From the NCBI RefSeq assembly GCF_013409645.1, contig NZ_JACCBG010000001.1, positions 124,001 to 188,000 on the forward strand: 64,000 bases of DNA. The letters run 5' to 3'. The position numbers and the translations under genes were made by a program. This DNA is from Nocardioides panaciterrulae. GTDB lineage: Bacteria > Actinomycetota > Actinomycetes > Propionibacteriales > Nocardioidaceae. The notes below the pieces were generated by a model. It was not told the origin of the DNA, searched no databases, and saw only the letters and a list, made by a program, of their open reading frames with translations. This document shows, in pieces, positions 8,328-14,233 of this stretch; position 1 is the stretch's first letter; the number at the start of each line of letters is the position of its first letter.

Positions 8328-9347
8328 GTGCGTGACGCCGCACGTCCGGGGGACACTGATCAAGTGTTGCTGACCACTGAGACCGAGGCCACTCGAGCGC
8401 TCGCCGCCGCCCTGCTTCGCTCCCTTTCACTGGCTAGGGACTGGCTTCGCCACCTCGGTGTCCCGTGCGACGCAGTTACAGATGTGCGCGTAGAGGAGAT
8501 TGTTCTGGACGGTGAACGCCGCGCGGACGTCCGCCTCGACGTTTTCGTCGCCGGCAGCGTCGCTGTCTTGACCGTTGAAGCGAAACTCGACGCCCCTGTG
8601 GATGTCTCGCAACTTGCCGACACGAAACGCGCGTCGGATGTCGTGGTCAGTTTGGTCCCGGCCGGAATCGCTCCCCCGGTGCTTTCGGGGGTGGTTGCGG
8701 CTACTTGGGAAGACCTGGTTAAGCTCATGCAGAGAGGACCGCACGCGGACGCGGTCACGCAGTTTCTCGCCGATGAGCTCATGCTCCTGCTCGACTCGCC
8801 GGCGATCCGAAGGCGACGTCGGCTCGCTGCTCTGATCCCGGCCCCGCTGCCCTCGAACTGGAGTTGCAGTGTCGTGGGGAACAAAGCAGGTGGCGATCTG
8901 CTGATACTCACCGGCCCCGAAATGCCGAGTGGTCAGTGGGTGCAGGTTGAGGTATCTGACCGATCACGTGGCCAACGGACGCCGCTGCGCGCCCATGTGT
9001 TGGCCTGCAGCAGATCCAGCGCAACCGATCCGGTCGTCTGGTCCGCGCTCGGCCATGCTGCTGGTCGGTCAACGCTAGTGCCACCCGAACACGTGGCGCA
9101 TGGCCAACGAGGGCGCCGCACGCCGGAAGAGACGTCGGCTGCCGCTGTCAATCAGGTGCCCGCTTCATGGACCTACGGATATGGGCAGAATCAGTTGACC
9201 CGCTGGGGGTGGGCTGGGTTCGGTCCCCGGCTCGAACTCATCGAAGGCAATCCTGAGCCCCTCGTAGCGCACGCCGTTAACCTCGCCGTCGCAATCGACC
9301 GGGAACTCGCCGCGGTAGCGGACGGCGGCCGCGCCGCGTGCCCATAG
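8328..9347 (+). CDS. PD-(D/E)XK nuclease-like protein
   Basis: A 339-residue protein whose N-terminal part fits a PD-(D/E)XK nuclease core: an Asp in RADVRLDVFV (Asp71), then VEAKLDAPVDVSQL with Glu84-Ala-Lys86 and the downstream Gln95 seen in restriction-type nucleases. Residues beyond about 170 form a separate region with no family I recognise (WTYGYGQNQLTRWGWAGF is distinctive). No signal peptide or membrane helix. GTG 8328 has AGGGAAGG just upstream; GTG 8364 is an alternative start that keeps the whole core. Its low-G+C setting with AbiTii and HEPN genes suggests a role in phage defence, which is inference. Confidence 0.6.
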   Translation: MRDAARPGDTDQVLLTTETEATRALAAALLRSLSLARDWLRHLGVPCDAVTDVRVEEIVLDGERRADVRLDVFVAGSVAVLTVEAKLDAPVDVSQLADTKRASDVVVSLVPAGIAPPVLSGVVAATWEDLVKLMQRGPHADAVTQFLADELMLLLDSPAIRRRRRLAALIPAPLPSNWSCSVVGNKAGGDLLILTGPEMPSGQWVQVEVSDRSRGQRTPLRAHVLACSRSSATDPVVWSALGHAAGRSTLVPPEHVAHGQRGRRTPEETSAAAVNQVPASWTYGYGQNQLTRWGWAGFGPRLELIEGNPEPLVAHAVNLAVAIDRELAAVADGGRAACP

Positions 9348-10581: not shown

Positions 10582-11427
10582 TTGAAACGGCTCCGGGAGC
10601 GAGGTGTGGGCTTGACCCGATCCACGAAGGGCATGCTCGAGCAGATCGAGGAGGGCGCGCTGGACAGTAAGTCTTCGCTGGCTGATGTCTTGCGGAAGTG
10701 TGTGGCCCTTGGCGGACGCTCTGGCTCGGAGCAGCTGAGGGACTGGGCACGTCGCGAACTTGACGGATACCCACCCGCGGAGGAGTTGCCGGGCTATAGG
10801 ACAGTGGGGGCCATCATTGCGATCGACGGCGCAAACCTTGCGTACAAGGTCACGGGCCAACAAATCTCGCCGTCGGACCTTCCGGAGTTCGCGCGTGAGT
10901 CCATCAAGCAAGAAGCTGCGATCACGCAAGGCGTCGCGGAAATCGAGAGGCTGGCTGCCACCCAGGAGGAGGTCATACGGATTCAGCACTCAGCGATGCC
11001 GGACCTAGTGACTTACATGAACAGCCAGCAGGACGACGTCCATGTCAACGGGACGATTCTCGCCATGTACTGGAAGGTCACGCCGAGTGCCCTGTACGGG
11101 ATCTTGGACACGATTCGCACAAATCTCGTGGCACTCGTGGCTGAAATGCGGGCGGCGGGAGTGGATGATGTGCCACCGGCGGAGGTCGCCAACCAAGCAG
11201 TCCAGGTGGTCGTTCACAACGCCAAACGAAGTCAGATCACTGTCAATGCCAACCAGGCATCGGGCGGCGTTGGAGGTTCCCAGGAGATCACAACGCCACC
11301 GTCCGCCGAGCATGCGAGTCTCCCAGGCTGGGTCCGGGGGCCGTGGGCGGTGGTCCTGGGCCTGGCAACCATTGCCGGTGGCGTGGGCGCGATCGCGGTC
11401 TGGCTCGATTGGACCCCATTCACATGA
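10582..11427 (+). CDS. AbiTii-domain protein with C-terminal membrane helix
   Basis: A 281-residue protein. Residues about 15-200 match the AbiTii domain of abortive-infection proteins: LADVLRKCVALGGRSGSEQLRDWARRELDGYP, split here as the LRKC, GSEQLRDWA and ELDGYP motifs, then LPGYRTVGA, ISPSDLPEF, and WKVTPSALYGILDTIRTNL. A Ser/Gly/Gln linker leads to one hydrophobic helix (WAVVLGLATIAGGVGAIAVWL, about 256-276). The layout suggests a sensor joined to a membrane effector. The start is TTG 10582 or GTG 10606; the latter has GGGAGCGAGG nearby. It converges with the HEPN-like gene across a hairpin. Confidence 0.78.
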   Translation: MKRLRERGVGLTRSTKGMLEQIEEGALDSKSSLADVLRKCVALGGRSGSEQLRDWARRELDGYPPAEELPGYRTVGAIIAIDGANLAYKVTGQQISPSDLPEFARESIKQEAAITQGVAEIERLAATQEEVIRIQHSAMPDLVTYMNSQQDDVHVNGTILAMYWKVTPSALYGILDTIRTNLVALVAEMRAAGVDDVPPAEVANQAVQVVVHNAKRSQITVNANQASGGVGGSQEITTPPSAEHASLPGWVRGPWAVVLGLATIAGGVGAIAVWLDWTPFT

Positions 11428-11455
11428 TCGCGAGTCGCAACGTGGGCGGAGGGGT

Positions 11456-11487
11456 CGACGGGCGGTGCCTTTGGTCGCCGCCCGTCG
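11456..11487. terminator. bidirectional terminator hairpin between convergent genes
   Basis: CGACGGGCGG, a 12-nt loop and CCGCCCGTCG form a perfect 10-bp stem between the AbiTii gene (plus) and the HEPN-like gene (minus). It can act on either transcript. Confidence 0.55.
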
Positions 11488-11567
11488 CTCTCGCTGAAAG
11501 GGAACACCGGCCCACGTCGTGTGTTTGCACGACGTAGGACCAAGTAGACGTCCGGCTGGCAGGGGCC

Positions 11568-13505
11568 CTAGTTCGACTCCCTTAGCTCGAGGTCGTCGTT
11601 GATTTTGATGACGAGTGCTACGAGCAATCGAAGCGCGTGTATGTAGGTATGGAAGTGCTCGCGGTCGTCCTCGCCATCAGCCTGCGATCCGTGGAGGTAC
11701 CGGTTGCGCAGGTCGGGTCCGTTGCTGAACTCGGACTGGTTCAGCATGTAGTTGAAGTAGCTGCTCTCCGGTGCTGTGAGCAATGAGGACCTACGCGTGA
11801 CCCATCCCTTCTGTTCCATTTCCTCGATGGCGTCTTGGCTTGCCTGCGAATGGCGGTTGAAGCTCGCGGCCTCGAAGTTGTTGAGCGACAGAAGGACTTC
11901 AAACTGCGCTAGGTTGGCGAATCGGAGAGGTTTACCATTCTCGTTCTCAACAATTCCACCTTCAACGAGGAAGTCGATGTCTGCCCGTTGATGCTCGGCG
12001 AAGGCTTCGTACGGGACGTCGTGCTTGAGGATGAGACGAGCGAACGTGTCTTCCTGCAGGCTCCCGTCGATGTAGCCCAGAACGGCCTGGTCGGAGAACA
12101 GCAGGTGTTGAATTCGGCGCACTTCCGGGTTGTCGGTCACGTAGACGTACTTACCTTCGACGAAGCTCGGTATGGCCCGGTATGACAGCTGCTCGGAAGT
12201 CATTGCGAGCAACTCTGGGTCCAGTTGTCCGTTTTCAACGTAGAGCGAGTACTGCTTGAGGACGCTCTCCATCTCTGCGAACAGATGTCGGGCCTTCTCC
12301 AGGAAGCTGGCTGTGCTGCTCGCCGGCCGAAACCTCAGGTTGTCGACGCCGAACTCTGCTGGAAGGTAGTCCTCGAAGAACCACGCCAAGACGTTCTCGA
12401 GCTCGATCGACTCTGAGCGCAGGAACTGTTCGTACATGACCAACTGGAGGAAGCTCGCCTGATTCGAGTGGTCGAACGCTGCGCCAGTTCGGTAGCTGTC
12501 TTTGCCGGTAGTCACCAAGAACCGCTCAACCACTCCAAGTTGCGCCGAGAACGACGGGAAGTTGAGCAGCATGTGATGGCTCGAGAACTCGAACAGGTAT
12601 ATGAAGTTGTTCAGGATGGACGGATTGTCCAGGCTCGCGTTCAGCCACTCTCTGCTGTAGGAGTACTTGCCGACGAGCCCATCCAAACTTGTCGCAACTG
12701 GATCGTCCTGGTCATCGGCAACGCGAATCTCACACCCCGTCTTGATGCCCTCGTTCGTCTCAAAGTGCTTCTTCCAATACGCGTCGTAAGCGCGCTGAGC
12801 CTTGAGCTTCAACTTCGGGTCGATGCCCGTGTTGCGATCGGTACGCGCATCGGCGACGAGCTTCAAGTAGTTCGGGTTGGGCCCATCGCTGTCGATGTAC
12901 GTCTCGATGAGTCCACGGCTGTCGTCGGCGGTCAGACTCTGAGGCAGGTGGATGTCGCGCCCGCCATCCGCCTGAAGATGCTTGGCAATGATCTGCTCTG
13001 CGTGCTTCGGACTCGCCAGAAGCAGAGCTCTCACTTCCGCGTCGTAGGCGCGCACGAGAGCAGCGTTGGACAGGAGTTCGCCTGTGTGAAAGCGAGCTTG
13101 TTTCAGCGCAGGCAGCACTACCGATGCGCTGCATCTGTGGAAGACGCCGTTTCGTGCGAGTAGATCCAACACGTCGGTGTGGTATTGAAAATCGACCTCT
13201 GTGATGCGAGTCGCGAAGTTCGCGTCGTCTACCTGACTGAAGAAGGTGCCGACTATCCGGCGCACATCAGCAATTCGCGCTCTCAGCGCGCGGCGCTCTT
13301 CTTCGGTAACACTTGCGGGGAAGAGGTCTTGGTCAGCGAACCTGCCCGCGTGGTGAATCTCGACTACGTCGTTGACCTCCGAGGGCTGCTGCGAGGAGTC
13401 GAGGGCGCCGAGTAGCCCGACAACTTGCTCGAGTTGGAAGAACGTCGCGTAGTCGGATAGCCCGTAGAACCTCAACCTCCTTCGTGGGAGTTCTGGTTCG
13501 GACAT
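11568..13505 (-). CDS. large protein with C-terminal HEPN-like RNase motif
   Basis: A 645-residue soluble protein I cannot place in a named family. The last 50 residues contain LRNRYLHGS (Arg600 to His605), an R-X4-H motif, followed by a helix HTYIHALRLLVALVIKIND. This is the arrangement of the C-terminal HEPN domains of DUF4209/ApeA-like proteins, which act as RNases in phage defence. The rest is helical with no P-loop or other nuclease motif. G+C is close to 50-60%, far below the genome, a sign of transfer. ATG 13505 is the start. It converges with the AbiTii gene. Defence function is inferred from the motif and neighbours. Confidence 0.6.
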   Translation of the reverse strand: MSEPELPRRRLRFYGLSDYATFFQLEQVVGLLGALDSSQQPSEVNDVVEIHHAGRFADQDLFPASVTEEERRALRARIADVRRIVGTFFSQVDDANFATRITEVDFQYHTDVLDLLARNGVFHRCSASVVLPALKQARFHTGELLSNAALVRAYDAEVRALLLASPKHAEQIIAKHLQADGGRDIHLPQSLTADDSRGLIETYIDSDGPNPNYLKLVADARTDRNTGIDPKLKLKAQRAYDAYWKKHFETNEGIKTGCEIRVADDQDDPVATSLDGLVGKYSYSREWLNASLDNPSILNNFIYLFEFSSHHMLLNFPSFSAQLGVVERFLVTTGKDSYRTGAAFDHSNQASFLQLVMYEQFLRSESIELENVLAWFFEDYLPAEFGVDNLRFRPASSTASFLEKARHLFAEMESVLKQYSLYVENGQLDPELLAMTSEQLSYRAIPSFVEGKYVYVTDNPEVRRIQHLLFSDQAVLGYIDGSLQEDTFARLILKHDVPYEAFAEHQRADIDFLVEGGIVENENGKPLRFANLAQFEVLLSLNNFEAASFNRHSQASQDAIEEMEQKGWVTRRSSLLTAPESSYFNYMLNQSEFSNGPDLRNRYLHGSQADGEDDREHFHTYIHALRLLVALVIKINDDLELRESN

Positions 13506-14233
13506 GGGCCTATCTTGGTGGTTCGGCGTGTGTCACACGAAGGATTTCTGCGTCGTGTTCGGTCTGATGAGGCCGGCCACCTTCGGCTTGCGTCAGATGT
13601 TGTGGCACCTCTCCTTCTGCTCGTAGCTGAGCGCGAGAAGACGCCTGAGCTGAGCCCATCTCAACCCGGCGCGTTGTGCGAAACTCAAGCCGGCGCTGCC
13701 GGTCGCAGCATTCTGGGCGAAAGGCCGCAGGTATCGGAACCGCGAGTGGACCGGTGACATCTCGTCGCCCCGGCACGATGACGGCCACTGGTTCTGCCAC
13801 TACGCCTTCCGCGCCAAGGCGGACAGCACCATCCACATCGAGGACGACAAGGCCACGGTCTGTGGCAAGTGGTTGGAGGTCGAAGGAGCCAAGGTGGACT
13901 CCTCATAGACCGGCTCGGGCTCGCACACGCTGAATCTCTGGCCCGTCGGTGGCTACGACGAGCTGACAGACTGCGGCCACAAGACCTATCGGCCGTCTGC
14001 GTCCAAGACCGCGAGGCGATTCAGTGCCGAGCGCCAGCCCTGCCCGGTTGCGCGAGCGACGGAGAAGCCGTGGACCGAGGCGAGCGTCAGGCTGGCGGCC
14101 CGATCGGGAGCAGTGCTTGGTGGTCCCGCCGCCGGGGAGCGACGTTGACGCCGCAACGTGAAGGCTCCGGATACGGGCTTTGCTCGGGCTGAAGGCTCAG
14201 GTCGCGGGTGTTTCCGCCCGCAGGGCATCCGCG
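13506..14233. other. gene-poor gap at the right edge of the low-G+C block
   Basis: A 728-nt gap between the HEPN-like gene and the acyl-CoA ligase. It holds only short overlapping frames without ribosome sites, plus the decayed frame at 13741-14148. It may be the right boundary of an acquired block. Confidence 0.5.
13741..14148 (+). pseudogene. decayed gene fragment interrupted by TAG
   Basis: Frame 1 reads a protein-like stretch with balanced composition (DGHWFCHYAFRAKADSTIHI, then CGKWLEVEGAK), meets TAG at 13906-13908, and continues in the same frame with similar character (TGSGSHTLNLWPVGGYDELT, DCGHKTYRP) before a TGA at 14146. No start codon with a ribosome site precedes it. I read this as the remnant of a secreted or Cys-containing protein gene broken by a nonsense change and 5' loss. 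The parent family is unknown. Confidence 0.4.

Follow-up and report, generated by a model that had tools for sequence, protein, structure and literature searches.

A PDC-S56 phage defence candidate of Nocardioides panaciterrulae with a probable HEPN-type RNase site in its C-terminal half

We analyzed a stretch of 64,000 nucleotides of the Nocardioides panaciterrulae genome (hereafter the window) and found in it a member of the catalogued family PDC-S56. This is likely to be a stand-alone, horizontally acquired defence gene whose product carries a metal-independent endoribonuclease of the HEPN type in its C-terminal half and acts by abortive infection. The gene spans exactly 11568..13505 on the minus strand, on which all parts of the protein named below are encoded, and is present as a single copy in the 4.27-Mb genome. 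The open reading frame proposed for this interval in the initial annotation is real: it starts with ATG and encodes 645 amino acids, while the plus strand across the same interval contains many stop codons. A local G+C content of about 50% had also been proposed. The value determined for the gene is higher, at 57.6% (GC3 74.6%) compared to 71.9% for the whole window, with 54.8% in its lowest 250-bp stretch; the low-G+C character itself is borne out, as positions 11001-14000 comprise the three lowest-G+C kilobases in the window. Immediately upstream, a small open reading frame (13510-13836) matches no family and seems to be open by chance, as happens in high-G+C DNA.

The protein had been described as unclassified and without resemblance to any family. 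With regard to Pfam, NCBIfam, and the PDB this description holds, and sequence searches against these databases and PHROGs yielded nothing significant; the Pfam, NCBIfam, and PDB sequence searches revealed no catalytic domain, whether DNA-cleaving or of another kind. It does not hold for PADLOC, where the protein matches PDC-S56 with an E-value of 3.6e-237 (residues 3-644 of 645, profile positions 3-643 of 649). The profiles of this family, PDLC05039 and PDLC05038 of PADLOC-DB, are those of a candidate single-gene phage defence. A match to PDC-S56 is common to the window protein and every aligned relative (39 of 39 members), and no other PADLOC family was matched at an E-value of 0.01. PDC stands for phage defence candidate; candidates of this series come from work based on guilt-by-embedding (Payne et al. 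2024, preprint, as cited in PMC12988326). The PADLOC entry gives neither a domain nor a mechanism, and a literature search whose scope did not extend to that preprint found no paper naming, testing, or explaining PDC-S56.

About 50 relatives were gathered from plasmids, whole genomes, 43 loci in species genomes, and 3 viral contigs. When species-genome contigs were scanned, the single-protein query gave no match, and the 43 loci were obtained using the alignment as query. The relatives belong to the Actinomycetota, Bacillota, Bacteroidota, and Pseudomonadota and include copies on plasmids and prophage contigs. In the alignment of 39 rows built from them, the homologues are 22-47% identical to the window protein.

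The motif LRNRYLHGS, predicted to form the RNase active site R600-N601-x3-H605, lies at residues 599-607 (11685..11711), and R600 and H605 were numbered correctly in the initial annotation. An R-x4-H motif by itself is not beyond chance: at least one occurs in 79% of shuffled proteins of equal composition, and R-[NDH]-x3-H occurs in 20%. What raises LRNRYLHGS above chance is the conservation of R600, N601, and H605 among the homologues. Only 12 columns are invariant across the 39 rows, namely P188, Y203, F305, K452, Y453, E580, Y583, L588, N589, R600, N601, and H605, and we estimate the chance of two positions named beforehand both being invariant at about 3e-4. In two pattern scans, R-N-x3-H was found in frame at 45 of 46 loci, the exception being L040, where the frame breaks before the C-terminus. 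As the bait of these scans was a block around residues 580-589, invariance is biased at this block but not at residues 600-605. LRN-x-Y-x-H is also present in nine further homologues retrieved by profile or tblastn searches that did not use the bait; these are not all independent, since two repeat sampled species or near-identical neighbours.

The sequence signatures of HEPN domains are R-x4-6-H, a polar residue following the arginine, and an acidic residue in helix 2, usually as Ex3[KR]; the motif is located at the end of helix 3 and is followed by helix 4 (PMC3710099). In PDC-S56, both R600 and H605 occur in 39 of 39 rows, and the polar residue directly after the arginine (N, D, or H in HEPN domains) is N601 in all of them. 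Position 413 is E or D in 39 of 39 rows, and (E/D)-x3-(K/R), with K or R at position 417, is present in 36 of 39. This signature, E413-x3-K417 in the window protein, is located inside a long helix (residues 401-425, 12231..12305) of the AlphaFold2 model, which by alignment and the published signature (PMC3710099) would correspond to HEPN helix 2. Putative helix 3 comprises residues 578-588 and 599-604 (11694..11774) and contains the invariant residues E580, Y583, L588, and N589. R600 is within the short helix 599-604, and H605 is in the loop just after it. A hydrophobic helix had been claimed to follow the motif, and the model places a long C-terminal helix at residues 614-644 (11574..11666), the putative HEPN helix 4. 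The invariant R-N-x3-H, the acidic-x3-basic signature in 36 of 39 members, and the position before the last helix all support the reading of the motif as a HEPN RNase active site. We infer from them that the C-terminal half adopts a HEPN fold and functions as an RNase of this type.

The model itself, obtained by AlphaFold2 on the family alignment, had a pLDDT of 90.8 and a pTM of 0.84 for the full protein. Residues 328-645 alone gave values of 90.3 and 0.86, indicating that prediction of the C-terminal half does not depend on the remainder of the protein. The N-terminal part (residues 1-327, 12525..13505) is predicted to be mostly helical, with a small beta element at residues 256-284, and probably represents the sensor or regulatory part. 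Foldseek searches of the full model against the PDB yielded no significant match; the best was to the HEPN protein Csx1-Crn2 (E 0.2, TM 0.13), which is no evidence of membership. Csx1-Crn2 and Csm6 are HEPN RNases whose active site is located close to the protein end, as is the putative one of PDC-S56, but neither a CARF domain nor a CRISPR context was seen for PDC-S56. Residues 328-645 likewise gave nothing significant, with no HEPN protein among the 50 matches listed, and a search against viral models also gave no significant match. A HEPN four-helix bundle in the 645-aa protein is therefore not recovered by fold search and is proposed from the order of the helices and the position of the signatures in the model.

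No HEPN family scored above threshold for any PDC-S56 member in HMMER searches. Among Pfam families, DUF4209 (PF13910), a HEPN family in the survey mentioned above (PMC3710099), was hit by the largest number of members (3 of 39), with a best E-value of 0.058 that does not reach the cut-off; L029 reached 11.9 bits against a curated Pfam threshold of 22.3. The located match falls on the motif. When the C-terminal part was aligned by hhalign with eight DUF4209 proteins, scores of 23-24 were obtained, compared to 17-19 for the best of 100 column shuffles, and omission of the insert described below brought the Ex3K helix of PDC-S56 onto the Ex3R helix of DUF4209. Using the C-terminal profile, all eight DUF4209 sequences outscored 123 of 125 unrelated neighbour proteins, the other two being a pair of near-identical restriction subunits. 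Comparison of the full-length profiles was weak (P 0.07). Like PDC-S56, DUF4209/C6orf70 proteins have LRN-x3-HG near the C-terminus and Ex3[KR] in an upstream helix, as found in the comparison with the eight proteins; they are mostly about 560-640 aa long, and DUF4209 is reported in operons related to restriction-modification. In contrast to these similarities, all PDC-S56 members remain below the Pfam threshold, and the N-terminal half has no detectable similarity to DUF4209. Thus, by a similarity that is sub-threshold but above controls, DUF4209 appears to be the HEPN family nearest to PDC-S56. HEPN_Apea (ApeA/BMEI1217), which likewise consists of long single proteins with R-N-x3-H close to the C-terminus and is reported in restriction-modification operons, was rejected as the nearest family, as the profile comparison was not significant.

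The missing fold match, together with the fact that the DUF4209 similarity rests mostly on 27 columns, would be compatible with LRN-x3-HG having a structural role in a helical fold unrelated to HEPN, the resemblance being convergence of a short string. We regard this as improbable, since a second, independent HEPN signature (acidic-x3-K/R) occurs in the right helix and in the right order, and the motif is placed correctly relative to the last helix.

About 185 residues separate the helix-2 motif from the active site in PDC-S56 compared to about 60 in DUF4209, and the additional sequence includes a winged-helix-like insert between putative helices 2 and 3 (residues 500-575, 11781..12008), as judged from the order of secondary-structure elements. 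This insert would split the HEPN domain. The Foldseek matches of residues 328-645 below the significance threshold include many winged helices of the MarR, GntR, and PadR type, in accordance with the helix-strand pattern at residues 500-575. These matches to winged-helix regulators, the insert itself, and the equal invariance of P188, Y203, F305, K452, and Y453 would also fit a C-terminus that is derived from or similar to HEPN without being a nuclease, serving in dimerisation or RNA binding, while other parts of the protein produce the effect, for example through DNA binding by the insert. However, non-canonical HEPN domains have lost the arginine and/or the histidine (PMC3710099), whereas none of R, N, and H varies in PDC-S56, and the lack of any other catalytic domain in our searches likewise speaks against such a role, which we consider quite unlikely. 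A more specific version of the HEPN RNase reading can be put forward tentatively, although we would not expect it to hold: PDC-S56 would be a new HEPN family with a core that the winged-helix insert splits, separating the acid of helix 2 from the active site, and nucleic-acid binding by the insert would directly switch on the RNase within one polypeptide.

PDC-S56 is distributed patchily, with matches in 7 of 197 congener genomes and, across the phylum, in 3 of 396. Identity to the window protein was 44-45% for the four congeneric copies that were compared, which are thus no closer to it than those of Nocardiopsis (47%) and Microbacterium (44%). In the tree, the window copy is placed apart from the congeneric copies, the separating branch being moderately supported (88/67). 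Both the identities and the tree placement fit an independent acquisition of the window copy. An empty-site comparison with one congener, which carries the flanking-gene copy most similar to that of the window, gave no empty site, as this gene is all that the congener has in common with the region. Another congeneric copy (G569:C1:2982308-2984227), from a 70% complete genome, is broken into three matches that lie in different frames and is either a pseudogene or an assembly error. At four congeneric loci (L080, L081, L082, and L083), about 250 bp upstream of the PDC-S56 gene are well conserved, and a frame across this stretch is open in at least two of the four; the stretch could contain a common promoter, encode a regulatory RNA or an N-terminal extension, or simply reflect recent common transfer.

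The relatives of the window protein are located in a defence-island context. Among 125 neighbour proteins, for which there was no matched random-gene control, type I restriction R and S subunits, HpaII, EcoRII, and cytosine methylases recur, as do HerA, SIR2, and resolvases/integrases. On an Enterococcus hirae plasmid (L006:5512-8324), the relative adjoins a TIR-domain gene and recombinase genes, suggesting a cassette-like defence island. Next to the PDC-S56 gene of the window and convergent with it is a gene for a 281-aa AbiTii protein (PF18864, Pfam 7.3e-32; 10582..11427, plus strand), which has a C-terminal hydrophobic segment, probably a membrane segment, and in which no HEPN domain was found. 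Further away, a gene at 8328-9347 (plus strand) encodes a 339-aa protein without a match in Pfam, NCBIfam, or PADLOC; by eye, a D...(V)EAK pattern near residues 65-86 resembles a PD-(D/E)XK nuclease core, and the gene could belong to the same defence island. That the PDC-S56 gene and the AbiTii gene together form a two-gene abortive-infection system is highly improbable: the AbiTii gene is the only one in the genome and is separated from the PDC-S56 gene by 140 bp within a shared low-G+C island, and fusions of AbiTii domains with Ymh- and c2405-family HEPN domains have been published (PMC3710099), but the two genes are convergent and form no operon, no constant partner gene was found at the relatives' loci, and AbiTii was rejected as a conserved partner because no relative of it is among the nearest neighbours at any other locus.

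Membership in PDC-S56, taken together with the strictly conserved HEPN-type motif, suggests that the protein probably stops infected cells by cutting RNA. The most likely arrangement is that of a sensor and a HEPN RNase in one chain acting by abortive infection. The RNase would be kept inactive by the N-terminal half together with the insert and be released once these detect a phage product or nucleic acid; with R600, N601, and H605 as the active site and E413 and K417 in a supporting role, the RNase would then cut host or phage RNA, and growth would stop. PDC-S56 is a widespread yet unexplained defence candidate, and a HEPN assignment that names these five residues provides it with a testable mechanism. 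If the assignment is right, the family would represent a single-gene HEPN system that unites sensor and RNase in a single polypeptide and needs no partner of the CRISPR, ATPase, or antitoxin kind.
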